Assembly: GCA_944324175.1 (NCBI GenBank)
Contig: CALUVH010000014.1
Location: forward strand, 1-50,233
DNA length: 50,233 bases
Direction: 5' to 3'
Source: Candidatus Gastranaerophilales bacterium
Lineage (GTDB): Bacteria > Cyanobacteriota > Vampirovibrionia > Gastranaerophilales > Gastranaerophilaceae
Both the position numbers and the translations under genes were made by a program. The notes under the pieces are model-generated. The model worked only from the letters and a program-made list of their open reading frames with translations, ran no database searches and had not been told where the DNA came from. Numbering within the stretch: position 1 is the first letter of the stretch; every line of letters begins with the position of its first letter. This document shows, piece by piece, positions 12,490 through 19,180 of this stretch.

Positions 12490-12612
12490 ATTAATCTCCT
12501 TCTTATATTACCCACATTACTAGTATAGCATACTGCTCATATGTCTTTATAAAACTTTAATAACACTTATCATATGAGAGCTGTTTTATCATCCAATGAA
12601 TAATAGTTTTTG

Positions 12613-12621
12613 TGTTACAAT
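12613..12621 (+). promoter_or_regulatory. Extended -10 promoter giving a predicted leaderless mRNA
   Basis: TGT-TACAAT (12613-12621) ends six bases before the ATG at 12628, the distance at which transcription would begin on the start codon itself. No ribosome binding site is present. An in-frame TTG at 12610 lies inside this element and is therefore unlikely as a start. Confidence 0.6.
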
Positions 12622-12627
12622 TTTATT

Positions 12628-13302
12628 ATGGATGATTTGAATTTAGTGGTAGAAAATACAAAGAAAAAATACAGGGAAATATTTTTACAATCGCTTGAGG
12701 CTATTCAAAACCGTATTAATGAGATTAAGCCAGATGGGGTTGTTACTGATGTTTTTGAAAAATATCCGAAGAATACAAAAGGATATGAGTGGCAAAAAGC
12801 TACTTTGGATATGCTTTTAAATGATATTTCGAAAGAAATTTTACAAAAATGGGCACAGGTGCTAGATTATAGAAAGGAATTTAGTTGTAAGGGATGTGCA
12901 ACTTGTTGTAATCTCGCTTGTAGTGAATTTTCATATGAGGAGTTGAAGGAAAAAGCAAAAAATGGTGATAATTTTGCAAAGCAATTCACAAGCATTTTTG
13001 TTCCTTATGGTTCCCGAGAGGAAGCAGCTGAAATATATCCTGAGTATTTGGAAATGTTAAAGGATAAGGGTGAAGTTTATTTTTATCATTGTCCTAAATT
13101 GACAGAATGTAAACGCTGTTCAGATTATGAAAATAGACCTGATATATGCAGACACTTTCCCGATAACCCTTTGGATATATTGCCTAAATCCTGCGGTTAC
13201 TACCCTTGGCGTAAAGAAGTTGAGCCGGTAGTTTTGATGTTGCATTCGATGGTTGAAATAATTGATTATTACAAACAAAATATACCTGTAGATGAGGATT
13301 AG
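12628..13302 (+). CDS. YkgJ-family cysteine-cluster protein (first copy)
   Basis: A 224-residue protein with the zinc- or iron-binding cysteine cluster of the YkgJ/CxxCxxCC family (residues near 85-100, CKGCATCCNLACS). A second cluster holds HCPKLTECKRCSDYENRP with CRHFP and PKSCGYYPW. The first 80 residues form a charged helical extension not found in the second copy at 18596. The biochemical role of the family is unresolved. Its stop is two bases before rlmN, so it heads an operon with rlmN and dtd, suggesting a link to RNA modification or translation quality control (inference). Confidence 0.85.
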   Translation: MDDLNLVVENTKKKYREIFLQSLEAIQNRINEIKPDGVVTDVFEKYPKNTKGYEWQKATLDMLLNDISKEILQKWAQVLDYRKEFSCKGCATCCNLACSEFSYEELKEKAKNGDNFAKQFTSIFVPYGSREEAAEIYPEYLEMLKDKGEVYFYHCPKLTECKRCSDYENRPDICRHFPDNPLDILPKSCGYYPWRKEVEPVVLMLHSMVEIIDYYKQNIPVDED

Positions 13303-14774: not shown

Positions 14775-14803
14775 TTGATAAAAATATTGTTTTATGTTAT
14801 AAT
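14775..14803 (+). promoter_or_regulatory. Strong promoter of the zinc-ribbon/rimM/trmD operon
   Basis: TTGATA (14775-14780), a 17-base spacer and TGT-TATAAT (extended -10, TATAAT at 14798-14803) form a strong sigma-70-type promoter. Transcription would start near 14810, leaving a leader of about 113 bases before the ATG at 14923. That leader contains a stray GAGGAG at about 14857 with no start codon after it. Confidence 0.75.
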
Positions 14804-14922
14804 ATGGACGTTAACATAGATCTATTTGTGGAAAGAATATTTATTTTTTTTACTGAGGAGAATTTACTTTATTATTTTATTTTTAACCCATTGTATTATT
14901 TTAAATTAAGAGGCTTATTATT

Positions 14923-15903
14923 ATGTATGTAAACAAGTGTATCAAATGTGGTCGTGAGTTTGAGACTAAAAACCCCAAAAGAGTTATTTGCCCGGATTGT
15001 CTGTATCCAGATAAGAGTATGATGATAAATCCTACTAATGGTGAGCAAACTGCTGTCCCAAAAGAAAATCAGCAGTTGCAGTCTTACAGTACTCCTGAGG
15101 CACCTCGTTATTATAGTGCAGGTGGAGATCCTGATGAACAACAAAGATATAGCAGACCGCAACGTTCTAATTACAATCGCGATGGGTATTCTCAAGGTTC
15201 TCGTAATTCAGGATATAATAGAGGTTCTTATGGTCGTGATAATAGGCGTTCTTCCTATGGTCAAAGATCTCAAGGTGGTTATTCTAGAGATAATAGAGGC
15301 GGTTATCCTCAAAGACGTCCAAACAATAGATTTAATAACAGACGTCCAGCGCCTAAGCCAAGAGGACCAAAACAACTTTTGATTACAAAGGAGCAGTTGG
15401 AACAAATTGAATTGCTGTATAAACCACTTTTACCGTTGCCAAATCCTGATAGCCATGAGGTAATTGCGGAAAAGATCGGATTAGAACCTAGAAAAGTGTT
15501 TTTTGGTATTAATTTGATACGTCAAAAAATGTTGTTGCCTAAATTGCCTTTCCCTAAAAGGAAATTGGCAATTTCACCGGATCAATTGTTCGCTATAAAA
15601 AGTCTATATGAACCATTGTTGCCTTTGCCTCCTATCGGTTGTCATAAGATTATTGCGGCACAGTTGAAAATGGATGAATGGCGTGTGCACGTGGGTATAG
15701 GTTTAGTGCGTGCTCAAATGGGTCTGAAAAGATGGAATCAGGATAGACCTGATGCTCCTGAGGAATACCGTAAACCTAAGAAAATTGTAAATGTTGAAGG
15801 TGAAGTTTCTCCAGAAGGATCTGTAGATAAGGAAAAATCAACAGATGCTCCTACAACAAAGAAAAGTAGAAAGTCTAAAAAAACAGAAGAAACTGCTGAA
15901 TAA
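14923..15903 (+). CDS. Zinc-ribbon, RG/Y-rich, tandem-repeat protein (probable RNA-binding)
   Basis: I do not recognise this 326-residue protein as a named family. Residues 6-26 form a zinc ribbon (Cys6, Cys9, Cys23, Cys26). Residues about 50-147 are low complexity, rich in Arg, Gly, Ser, Tyr and Asn, with repeated RG/RGG- and RNNR-like units typical of RNA-binding tails. Two homologous 59-residue repeats follow (150-208 and 213-271), identical at about 23 positions and sharing LY-PLLPLP, a His and an IA element that looks like a helix-turn-helix. A Lys/Glu-rich tail ends the protein. Its stop overlaps rimM by one base, arguing for a ribosome- or RNA-related role (inference). Confidence 0.8.
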   Translation: MYVNKCIKCGREFETKNPKRVICPDCLYPDKSMMINPTNGEQTAVPKENQQLQSYSTPEAPRYYSAGGDPDEQQRYSRPQRSNYNRDGYSQGSRNSGYNRGSYGRDNRRSSYGQRSQGGYSRDNRGGYPQRRPNNRFNNRRPAPKPRGPKQLLITKEQLEQIELLYKPLLPLPNPDSHEVIAEKIGLEPRKVFFGINLIRQKMLLPKLPFPKRKLAISPDQLFAIKSLYEPLLPLPPIGCHKIIAAQLKMDEWRVHVGIGLVRAQMGLKRWNQDRPDAPEEYRKPKKIVNVEGEVSPEGSVDKEKSTDAPTTKKSRKSKKTEETAE

Positions 15904-16421
15904 TGAATAATGATAGGTTTGTGTCTGTAGGTAAAATTTTAAACTTTCATGGTATTCAAGGCGAAGCAAAGGTCGGCTTTTCTAAGAGTCAACAAGATTT
16001 TTTCTTGTCTTTACAAGAAGTTTTTGTAAAATATGAAAATAGTTATGTTCCGCTCAATATTTCACGTGCGAGAATGAATAAAAGCTTTGCTATTTTAAAG
16101 TTTGAGCAAATTAATTCAATTAATGAGTTAATGAAATATAAGGGTTGCTTACTTTTTGTTAAGGAACAGACGATTAGAGAAAATTTGGAAGACGATGAGT
16201 TTTTGATCGATGAATTGGTTAGTTTGGAAGTCTTTGACCAACAAGGAGATAAGTTAGGTTTTGTCGTCGGTGTCTCCAATAATGGAGCTAATGATTTATT
16301 GTCGGTTAAAACAAAATCTCAAAAGGTTTGCTTAGTTCCTTTTGTTAAGGCTATAGTGACTGATGTTGATTTGAGAGAAAAGAAAATTTTTATTAATAAT
16401 CTTGAAGGGTTATTGGAATGA
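15903..16421 (+). CDS. rimM: 16S rRNA processing protein RimM
   Basis: A 172-residue 30S assembly factor. The N-terminal RimM barrel starts VGKILNFHGIQGEAKVGF, close to the family GKI-x-x-x-HGIKGE motif. The C-terminal PRC-barrel region contains FLIDELVSLEVFDQQGDKLG and KVCLVPFVKAIVTDVDLREK. It overlaps the upstream gene by one base and trmD by four, so it is translationally coupled on both sides. Confidence 0.95.
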   Translation: MNNDRFVSVGKILNFHGIQGEAKVGFSKSQQDFFLSLQEVFVKYENSYVPLNISRARMNKSFAILKFEQINSINELMKYKGCLLFVKEQTIRENLEDDEFLIDELVSLEVFDQQGDKLGFVVGVSNNGANDLLSVKTKSQKVCLVPFVKAIVTDVDLREKKIFINNLEGLLE

Positions 16422-17110
16422 AATTTGATATTTTGACGTTATTTCCAGAAATGGTGGAACAGTTTTTTAATTTTAGCATAATGAAACGTGCTAAAGAACG
16501 TGGGGTATTTGAATTGAATCTTGTTAACCCTCGTGATTTCACTTTGGATAAGCATAAAAAAGTTGATGATACCCCATATGGTGGCGGAGCTGGTATGGTT
16601 TTGATGGCGCAGCCATATGTTGATGCTTATGAAAGTGTTGAAAAATTTTCCAATTCCGTGACTGTGATGCTTTCCCCTCAGGGTGAACCTTTGACTGATA
16701 ATCTTGTAAATGAATTAGCACAATATGAGCAAGTAGTTTTATTATGTGGACATTATGAGGGATTTGATGAAAGGATTAGAGAAATTATAAGTCCTAGAGA
16801 AATATCCATCGGTGATTTTGTTTTGACTGGTGGTGAATTGCCTGCTTTGTGTCTTGTTGATGCGATTAGTCGAAAATTAGAAGGTACTCTTGGTAAAATT
16901 GAGTCAGCAGAAGAAGATAGCTTTTCTAACGGCTTACTTGAATACCCTCATTACACAAAACCGCGAGAATATCGTGGAATCAGGGTTCCAGAGGTCTTAC
17001 TTAATGGTAATCATAGAGAAATTAATGAGTTTCGCTTAAATGAAAGTTTGAAAAGAACTCAAAAAAGACGTCCTGATTTATATGAAAAATATATTAAAAA
17101 TTCCTTTTAA
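16418..17110 (+). CDS. trmD: tRNA (guanine-N1)-methyltransferase TrmD
   Basis: A 230-residue SPOUT methyltransferase that makes m1G37 in tRNA and prevents frameshifting. Signatures are FDILTLFPEM, DDTPYGGGAGMVLM, LLCGHYEGFDERI and the knot motif EISIGDFVLTGGELPAL, with YTKPREYRGIRVPEVLLNGNH near the end. The start overlaps the rimM stop (ATGA). The usual downstream rplS is absent; instead the gene converges with, and overlaps by 17 bases, an unknown minus-strand gene. Confidence 0.96.
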   Translation: MKFDILTLFPEMVEQFFNFSIMKRAKERGVFELNLVNPRDFTLDKHKKVDDTPYGGGAGMVLMAQPYVDAYESVEKFSNSVTVMLSPQGEPLTDNLVNELAQYEQVVLLCGHYEGFDERIREIISPREISIGDFVLTGGELPALCLVDAISRKLEGTLGKIESAEEDSFSNGLLEYPHYTKPREYRGIRVPEVLLNGNHREINEFRLNESLKRTQKRRPDLYEKYIKNSF

Positions 17111-17564
17111 GATCGTTGGAATGCCCGAAACCACAGGCATCTTTGAAGAATTTTACAATTCCGTAAGCCGCTAGTCCGATACCAAATCCACCTGCAACTT
17201 TGTTGTTTTTTGAAACCAAAGCTCCTATTCCAAGACCTAATGGTACAACTGAATTAACAAGCATTGAACCGAAGCCTTTGAAATATCCGATTGCTGAATT
17301 TACAAAATGTCTTACGTTATCTTGTATTTGCCAATTAAATAAAAAGTTTTTAGTTTTTGACATTGTTATACTAGGGTCTGTCAAAAACATGGTATTGTTA
17401 TATGAATTGAGGCATGCTTTTGCATCTTGTGTTTTTGCGTAAGCATCAGAATTCATTTTGCCTAACGTGTGTGAATCATAGGCAACAATTCCCAGTGCAA
17501 CTGCGCCTGCGCCTTTTGCAAGATATTTCCCATAATTGCTTTTAATTGCAGATATTATTGTCAT
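17094..17564 (-). CDS. Hypothetical glycine-rich membrane protein
   Basis: A 156-residue protein I do not recognise. It has one hydrophobic segment near residues 17-30 (AKGAGAVALGIVAYDS), and a hydrophobic, Gly-rich C-terminal half (about 100-145; VVPLGLGIGALVSKNNKVAGGFGIGLAAYGIVKFF) suggestive of a helical hairpin. The middle part is polar. Its ATG overlaps the stop of the upstream gene (ATGA), and its 3' end overlaps trmD by 17 bases tail to tail. The tight coupling suggests it acts with the HEAT-like protein. Confidence 0.7.
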   Translation of the reverse strand: MTIISAIKSNYGKYLAKGAGAVALGIVAYDSHTLGKMNSDAYAKTQDAKACLNSYNNTMFLTDPSITMSKTKNFLFNWQIQDNVRHFVNSAIGYFKGFGSMLVNSVVPLGLGIGALVSKNNKVAGGFGIGLAAYGIVKFFKDACGFGHSNDLKRNF

Positions 17565-18472
17565 AATAATGTCATCACCTTATTTATATCTTCTGTTTTT
17601 TCTTTTTTCTTATCTTTATTTGTTACTTCAAATTCTTTTTCTGTTGTTTGTCCAGACATTTTGAGAAGGATATTTGCAGCCATAAGAGCGTCTTGACCGT
17701 ATCCTGTTGTTGAATTTTGCATGTTCTTAAGTACATTTACTGTGTATTCATCGCCCGTTATATTTCTTGAATACAACAGACTCAAACCTAAGAATCTAAC
17801 CTTCATATCAGGATCTTGAATCATTTTATTCACCAGCGCAGTGAGAGCTTTATCATCTTTTCTGGAAGGATCTTCGAGGGCTCTTGCTACTACCTCTTTA
17901 GCACCCATTAAACGCACTTCTTTGTCCTGACTGTTAAGGTAATTTTCAACATTTTTGATATATTCATCAGTTAACATAACAATTGTGCGTTTTTCTGTTT
18001 TTTTGCCATTGTTTTCAGAGTTTGAAGATGTTGCTGTATTTTGTTGTGTAGCCTGTGGTGGTGTTTGATTTTGTTGTGCGGTGGCTACATTTGGTGCATT
18101 GTAAACTGGCGGTGTTACTGTTACATTTTGAGTTTGGCTTACCCCACCATTAATTGATTGGTTTGGGATTCCTGATGCAGGATATTGTGGACAGTTGTAG
18201 CCTTGTCCCCAATTGTTTGTATAATAATTTGAAGGATAGCTTTGCATTTGATTTGGGTTTTGCCCGTAAGATGGAGCGTTTACATTGTATACCGGTGCCG
18301 CCCCTGGTGTACCTACAGAAGGATTATAAATTTGAATATGTACCCCTGACTGACTACTCGGTACTGCAATATCCTGCGGTTGAGGGCAGTACTGTGGTTG
18401 AGGACAGCTTTGCTGAGCAGTCTGCGTTTGTGATATTGGTTGAGTTTGAAATTGACCTACTGAATTTTGCAT
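17561..18472 (-). CDS. Hypothetical protein: disordered Pro/Gln/Asn N-half, helical-repeat C-half
   Basis: A 303-residue protein of unknown function. Residues 1 to about 155 are low complexity, rich in Gln, Pro, Asn and Tyr (CPQPQYCPQPQD, YPSNYYTNNWGQGYNCPQYP). Residues about 160-285 are helical and HEAT/ARM-like: VENYLNSQDKEVRLMGAKEV, DDKALTALVNKMIQDPDMKV and GQDALMAANILLKM. The tail is Lys/Glu-rich. No signal peptide or membrane segment. TATAAT near 18500 and GAGG before the ATG indicate a leadered mRNA. It is coupled to the gene at 17094. A scaffold role is a guess. Confidence 0.75.
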   Translation of the reverse strand: MQNSVGQFQTQPISQTQTAQQSCPQPQYCPQPQDIAVPSSQSGVHIQIYNPSVGTPGAAPVYNVNAPSYGQNPNQMQSYPSNYYTNNWGQGYNCPQYPASGIPNQSINGGVSQTQNVTVTPPVYNAPNVATAQQNQTPPQATQQNTATSSNSENNGKKTEKRTIVMLTDEYIKNVENYLNSQDKEVRLMGAKEVVARALEDPSRKDDKALTALVNKMIQDPDMKVRFLGLSLLYSRNITGDEYTVNVLKNMQNSTTGYGQDALMAANILLKMSGQTTEKEFEVTNKDKKKEKTEDINKVMTLL

Positions 18473-18595: not shown

Positions 18596-19180
18596 ATGGA
18601 TATGGAATCTTACGAAAAAAATTATTTGAATAAGCGTCCTCAAGATTTATGTCTTATGTGTGGAAAGTGTTGTAGAGTTGTAACAACTGCGATACCTTAT
18701 GATGAATTATTAAAATTAGCAAAGGATGGGGATGTGTATGCAAGAGAGTTTTTGGAAATTTTTCTTCCTTATCCGTCAATAGAAGAAGCAAGAAAAGCCG
18801 GAGATGATATTGTAGAAAATATATTGTCACATTTAAGAAATGATAAAAAATCCGTTGATAATCTTACTTTTTACTATTGTAAGTATCTTCAAAAGGACAA
18901 TAAATGTGGTCGCTATGAAGATAGGATGACTTTGTGCAAGCATTTTCCGAGCTCTCCTTGGGCGATTATACCTCCGGGTTGCGGTTTTGCTGGGTGGCTT
19001 TTTTTAAAAAGAGAAGAAGCCAAAGAGAGGGTTCGTAAAGCAAAAGAAGAATTGCTTGATTTAAAGGTTTTAAGAACAAAACTTTTAAATCAAGAGGCGC
19101 TTGAAAAACTTAATTTAGTGGAGAAAAAACTCAACAAAACCATTGAATTATATAAAAAATACGGTTCTTATGACTGGTAG
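18596..19180 (+). CDS. YkgJ-family cysteine-cluster protein (second copy)
   Basis: A 194-residue protein with the CxxCxxCC cluster (LCLMCGKCCRVV, Cys about 19-26) and the second half-site with YYCKYLQKDNKCGRYEDRM, CKHFPSSPW and PPGCGF. It is shorter at the N-terminus than the copy at 12628 but has a helical Lys/Glu/Leu-rich C-terminal tail. It likely binds zinc or an iron-sulfur cluster; function is unknown. It is a single gene converging with the GH57 gene. ATG 18596 is preferred over ATG 18602 because of the -10 spacing. Confidence 0.87.
   Translation: MDMESYEKNYLNKRPQDLCLMCGKCCRVVTTAIPYDELLKLAKDGDVYAREFLEIFLPYPSIEEARKAGDDIVENILSHLRNDKKSVDNLTFYYCKYLQKDNKCGRYEDRMTLCKHFPSSPWAIIPPGCGFAGWLFLKREEAKERVRKAKEELLDLKVLRTKLLNQEALEKLNLVEKKLNKTIELYKKYGSYDW

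Follow-up and report, generated by a model that had tools for sequence, protein, structure and literature searches.

Several described systems come close to the protein reported here in one respect or another. The nearest in fold are the homeodomains (Pfam PF00046), in particular the tandem homeodomains of DUX4: two copies of a three-helix helix-turn-helix (HTH) of about 60 residues, with a basic arm before helix 1 and an arginine at position 53. The roles of homeodomain positions 3, 5, 44, 46, 48, 51, 53 and 55 have been established from homeodomain–DNA complexes; N51 contacts the bases and W48 is a core residue. The three-helix HTH fold in general is very common in bacteria, and the winged helices of SelB bind structured RNA. 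As regards gene position, YlqD, a predicted coiled-coil-rich protein (PF11068), is known from the rpsP-ylqC-ylqD-rimM-trmD cluster of Bacillus. Finally, CarD of Myxococcus xanthus is an HMGA-like bacterial protein that contacts DNA by four AT-hooks (RGRP), with the zinc residing in its partner CarG (PMC4374960).

Our window, the whole stretch of 50,233 nucleotides that was analysed, carries at positions 14,923–15,903 a gene for a 326-residue protein made up of a zinc ribbon, a disordered stretch rich in arginine, two HTH repeats that resemble homeodomains and a charged tail. All the features of the gene, its leader and the operon given below lie on the forward strand. The source belongs to the Gastranaerophilales, an order of gut bacteria that are related to the cyanobacteria and do not photosynthesise. 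The gene order is dtd, this gene, rimM, trmD, with 157 bases between the dtd stop codon and the ATG start of our gene. A preliminary description made from the sequence alone had given the same frame and read it as translationally coupled to the genes after it; its stop codon shares one base with the ATG of rimM (TAATG), and rimM (15,903–16,421; Pfam and TIGR02273) in turn overlaps trmD (16,418–17,110; TIGR00088) by four bases. The same description knew of no family with this layout, and indeed the window protein has no match above the curated cut-offs of Pfam or NCBIfam, none that is significant in PHROGs, and no paper on it was found in the literature. It is an undescribed protein, lineage-specific and highly conserved within the Gastranaerophilales.

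Architecture of the protein

The ribbon, CIKCGREFETKNPKRVICPDCLYP, occupies residues 1–30 (14,923–15,012). Its cysteines are residues 6, 9, 23 and 26, and this C-x2-C...C-x2-C pattern, already recognised as a four-Cys zinc ribbon, is kept in 63 of 63 distinct relatives; the segment FETKNPKR is invariant. Two CxxC knuckles on a predicted beta hairpin (pLDDT ~93) are those of a zinc ribbon, the zinc itself being putative. There are only weak zinc-ribbon matches in Pfam, and the resemblance to RNA polymerase subunit P (NCBIfam) is likewise weak, the ribbon matches being short. Assignment to a zinc-ribbon family from NCBIfam or PHROGs was rejected, the matches there being weak as well.

There follows an arm (residues 35–148; 15,025–15,366) that is rich in R, S, G, Y, N and Q and poor in K. 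The composition of residues 51–148 (19% R, 13% G, 13% S, 11% Y and 10% N) and AlphaFold2 pLDDT values below 50 over residues 62–142 agree with the Arg/Gly/Tyr-rich disordered stretch read earlier from the translation. Across relatives the arm varies in length (90–239 residues) and make-up, yet it is R-rich and K-poor throughout. A disordered stretch like this, with much Arg, little Lys, and Tyr and Gly besides, recalls the RGG-type RNA-binding proteins; unlike them, the window protein has HTH units, and its RGG triplets do not cluster into an RGG box, there being only one in the whole protein (by reading) and four RG or GR dipeptides in the arm. No RRM, KH or cold-shock domain was found in it.

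The two repeats (residues 149–205, 15,367–15,537; and residues 213–275, 15,559–15,747) are each predicted by AlphaFold2 to be a three-helix HTH, with helices at 156–169, 177–185 and 189–202 in repeat 1 (pLDDT ~90) and at 219–232, 240–248 and 252–265 in repeat 2, in keeping with the HTH-like element that had been proposed. Between them the linker PKLPFPKRKLAI (residues 206–217; 15,538–15,573), with an invariant P-K-R, lies at the place of the homeodomain N-terminal arm; repeat 2 is very conserved and ends in RWNxxR. The repeats align without gaps, at a period of 63, over 58 residues, 23 of them identical, and their local alignment score of 110 lies well above those of 2000 shuffles (mean 23, maximum 43); they are thus true repeats as claimed, although 58 columns align and not 59. 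The full-length prediction, built on 26 full-length relatives, gives the ribbon and the HTH units with confidence, and the arm and most of the tail with pLDDT below 50. A prediction of the core only has a mean pLDDT of 86, with helices at core positions 13–26, 34–42 and 46–59, and again at 76–89, 97–105 and 109–122.

The homeodomain is the only Pfam family matched by most members (24 of 27, best E 7.4e-7), bearing in mind that these members are related and that counts over the 27, here and below, are not independent tests. Against a curated cut-off of 22.9 bits the window protein scores 19.1–22.4 bits (repeat 1: 22.2 bits, E 1.2e-4) and so falls below it, whereas two relatives (L031 and L076, the latter with two matching stretches) lie above it at 27.5 and 29.3 bits. 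The profile matches both repeats in the same register, as seen for repeat 2 in relatives, over helices 1 and 2 and the start of helix 3, and the similarity ends at profile position 45–46 of 57. Across 292 genomes of the phylum the Homeodomain cut-off is exceeded only twice, each time by a member of this protein family, so bacterial HTHs do not commonly show this likeness by chance. Homeodomains also fill most of the structural match list: the first six Foldseek matches are DUX4 double homeodomains, though the scores are weak (E only 0.008, TM ~0.3), and in VIA-align the single units reach a middling Z of up to 5.4. A sequence profile search of the PDB returned homeodomains only, at E values (0.07–0.5) that are not significant alone.

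The homeodomain WFxN signature is, on the other hand, absent: W48 is replaced by G or A and N51 by L, I or V in 27 of 27 members, in both repeats. Equally constant are R53 (27 of 27, both repeats), K55 in repeat 1 (27 of 27) and the K-R of the arm before repeat 2 (27 of 27). With W48 and N51 lost but R53 and the basic arm kept, the repeats are, judged by these residues, homeodomain-like and not homeodomains; they differ further from DUX4 in their weak structural scores, in being bacterial and in having a zinc ribbon and an R-rich arm besides. Repeat 1 has, for a recognition helix, a very hydrophobic helix 3 (VFFGINLVRQKM). That a bacterial HTH scores as a homeodomain has a bearing on the origin of that fold.

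The tail (residues 276–326; 15,748–15,900) is disordered and K/E-rich. Like CarD, our protein is lineage-restricted and joins an ordered domain to a tail that is disordered and has both acidic and basic stretches; where the CarD tail has RGRP AT-hooks (PMC4374960), most close relatives of our protein have an AT-hook-like RGRK, in KRGRKPKK. Unlike CarD, it has no CarD_CdnL match and at most one AT-hook variant, which is lacking in the window protein, whose tail reads KKSRKSKK and holds no RGR. The tail pattern RGR[KPA] occurs in 42 of 63 relatives, against 0.08 expected from shuffles, mostly as a single RGRK; it falls short of the AT-hooks of HMGA, which have an RGRP core and usually come in several copies.

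Distribution and linkage to rimM and trmD

The gene is single-copy and present in 181 of the 182 good genomes of the Gastranaerophilales, and it also occurs outside the order in three families of the class (f9, f14 and f15; E 1e-48 to 1e-60). A profile search of the class's remaining families, and of the phylum as sampled beyond the class, gave a best E of 0.02, which we have taken as absence, and the viral contigs searched contained no relative. The core is 123 residues long in 63 of 63 sequences read; between the window and other orders it is 56–66% identical, without gaps, whereas TrmD there is 46–55% identical. Its retention by nearly every genome of the order, together with a core that is better conserved than TrmD, makes it likely that the protein is important in this abundant gut order. 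It is a conserved protein without a family entry in the libraries searched and offers a concrete target for how these mostly uncultured gut bacteria organise their DNA or RNA.

Conservation of the rimM linkage had been proposed as a check on function. In the window's family rimM lies directly downstream in 80 of 80 public loci, often overlapping the gene (by a few bases in L187), and trmD is within ~2 kb in 6 of 6 genomes tested. In the other 21 genomes with a trmD match, trmD is on another contig or, in the single-contig G200, 235 kb off; a different contig is weak evidence in fragmented assemblies, but G007, G013, G205 and G200 have only 8, 3, 3 and 1 contigs. The linkage to trmD is thus absent in families f2, f4, f6, f7, f9, f14 and f15, and in f3, in the genomes where trmD was found. 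Membership of a rimM–trmD operon is confined to one family and does not hold for the protein across its range, and accordingly says little about function. In genomes of f4, f7 and f9 (L225, L226, L229 and L242) it is YlqD that precedes rimM, with our gene elsewhere; the two proteins are unrelated, and the slot before rimM–trmD is YlqD's in some relatives that lack the linkage. Outside the window's family the neighbours of our gene vary, and include (by reading) serine dehydratase or gatB; in f9 and f15 genomes (L092, L095, L097 and L099) it adjoins genes that read as the beta and alpha subunits of L-serine dehydratase.

Probable function

We read the protein as one that binds nucleic acid and is specific to its lineage. 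Most likely it binds DNA, as an architectural protein or one of transcription, and we would give this reading, based on sequence and predicted structure, an even chance of being right. The invariant basic residues on the arm before repeat 2 and on helix 3 suggest contact with nucleic acid. The two linked homeodomain-like units would hold the DNA by its backbone, using the basic arm (K-R-K) and residues of the R53/K55 type; further contacts, weak and multivalent, would come from the R/Y-rich arm and from the charged tail, which often bears RGRK, and would spread the protein or make it cluster; and a partner would dock on the zinc ribbon. With N51 lost, sequence specificity is probably low, and the hydrophobic helix 3 found in repeat 1 is a reason for caution. 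We infer DNA as the ligand rather than RNA, just as we infer the low specificity, the clustering and the role of the ribbon. The disordered arm could possibly form condensates. It is unlikely, in our view, that the protein is a universal single-copy double-homeodomain-like chromatin protein of eukaryote-like build and bacterial origin, which organises the nucleoid or global transcription by means of a phase-separating arm. That the genome encodes two HU proteins counts against the DNA reading, since it does not want for a basic nucleoid protein, and a role as HU replacement was rejected.

The preliminary description had suggested, among other roles, an RNA chaperone or ribosome-assembly factor, and named repeats matching a non-RNA domain, or a linkage to rimM and trmD lacking in relatives, as grounds for abandoning its proposal. 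Each of these goes part of the way: the repeats do resemble a DNA-binding domain, and the RNA proposal is weakened since it had rested on a rimM–trmD linkage that is absent in other families, where the neighbours vary and the slot before rimM can hold YlqD. Nevertheless, the main rival reading, possible if clearly the lesser prospect, is that the protein is an RNA chaperone or a partner in ribosome or tRNA maturation, whose arm binds RNA, whose HTH units bind a structured RNA in the manner of SelB, and whose co-expression with rimM and trmD is functional. The invariable downstream rimM in the window's family would fit this, as would the R-rich, K-poor arm and a SelB RNA-binding domain among the weak Foldseek matches; R/G/Y/N-rich arms are typical of RNA-binding proteins too, a point against the DNA reading, although the single RGG triplet of the window protein is not what they would lead one to expect. 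More doubtful still is a hub for docking RNA polymerase or a regulator, in which the ribbon and the hydrophobic helix-3 faces would bind proteins, the tri-helical units would be protein-interaction modules and any contact with DNA or RNA would be minor: the invariant FETKNPKR, the hydrophobic helix 3 of repeat 1 and the faint likeness to RNA polymerase subunit P speak for it, but the ribbon matches are weak and short and the invariant basic residues point to nucleic acid. True homology to eukaryotic homeodomains, whether by acquisition from a eukaryote or as a bacterial sister of that family, is very improbable despite the profile matches in both repeats, the two members above the cut-off and the DUX4-like tandem, given the loss of the WFxN signature in every member, the early end of the similarity and the fact that three-helix HTHs are very common in bacteria.

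Promoter, leader and flanking genes

Upstream of the gene lies a candidate promoter, TTGATA-17-TATAAT (14,775–14,803; 11 of 12), with a TG before the -10 element; promoter-like columns are kept in 79 leaders of the window's family. The leader contains a GAGGAG box, ACTGAGGAG (14,852–14,860), kept in family f1, and a ribosome-binding element, AATTAAGAGGCTT (14,904–14,916), of which 12 of 13 positions are at least 99% identical over the 79 leaders. Compared with shuffled sequence the leader has less structure (mean z +1.7 over 22 leaders), which rules out a riboswitch-like fold, and a search of the leader and operon against Rfam gave no match. An open leader with conserved boxes suggests strong, open translation initiation, and the gene's apparent own promoter and unstructured leader would fit strong expression. 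Autogenous control through the leader, with its two conserved purine-rich boxes (14,775–14,916), is possible. As a candidate regulon motif the leader element had no other site in the genome, in what was a weak test, since the fixed 4-base spacer of the pattern missed the gene's own 5-base copy.

Two CxxCxxCC proteins (PF03692, putative zinc/iron-chelating) flank the rlmN-dtd-rimM-trmD stretch, one on each side (12,610–13,302 and 18,596–19,180). A gene on the reverse strand at 17,561–18,472, whose product has a Q/P/N-rich N-terminal half and no Pfam match, is kept beside the operon in two relatives (L109 and L110).
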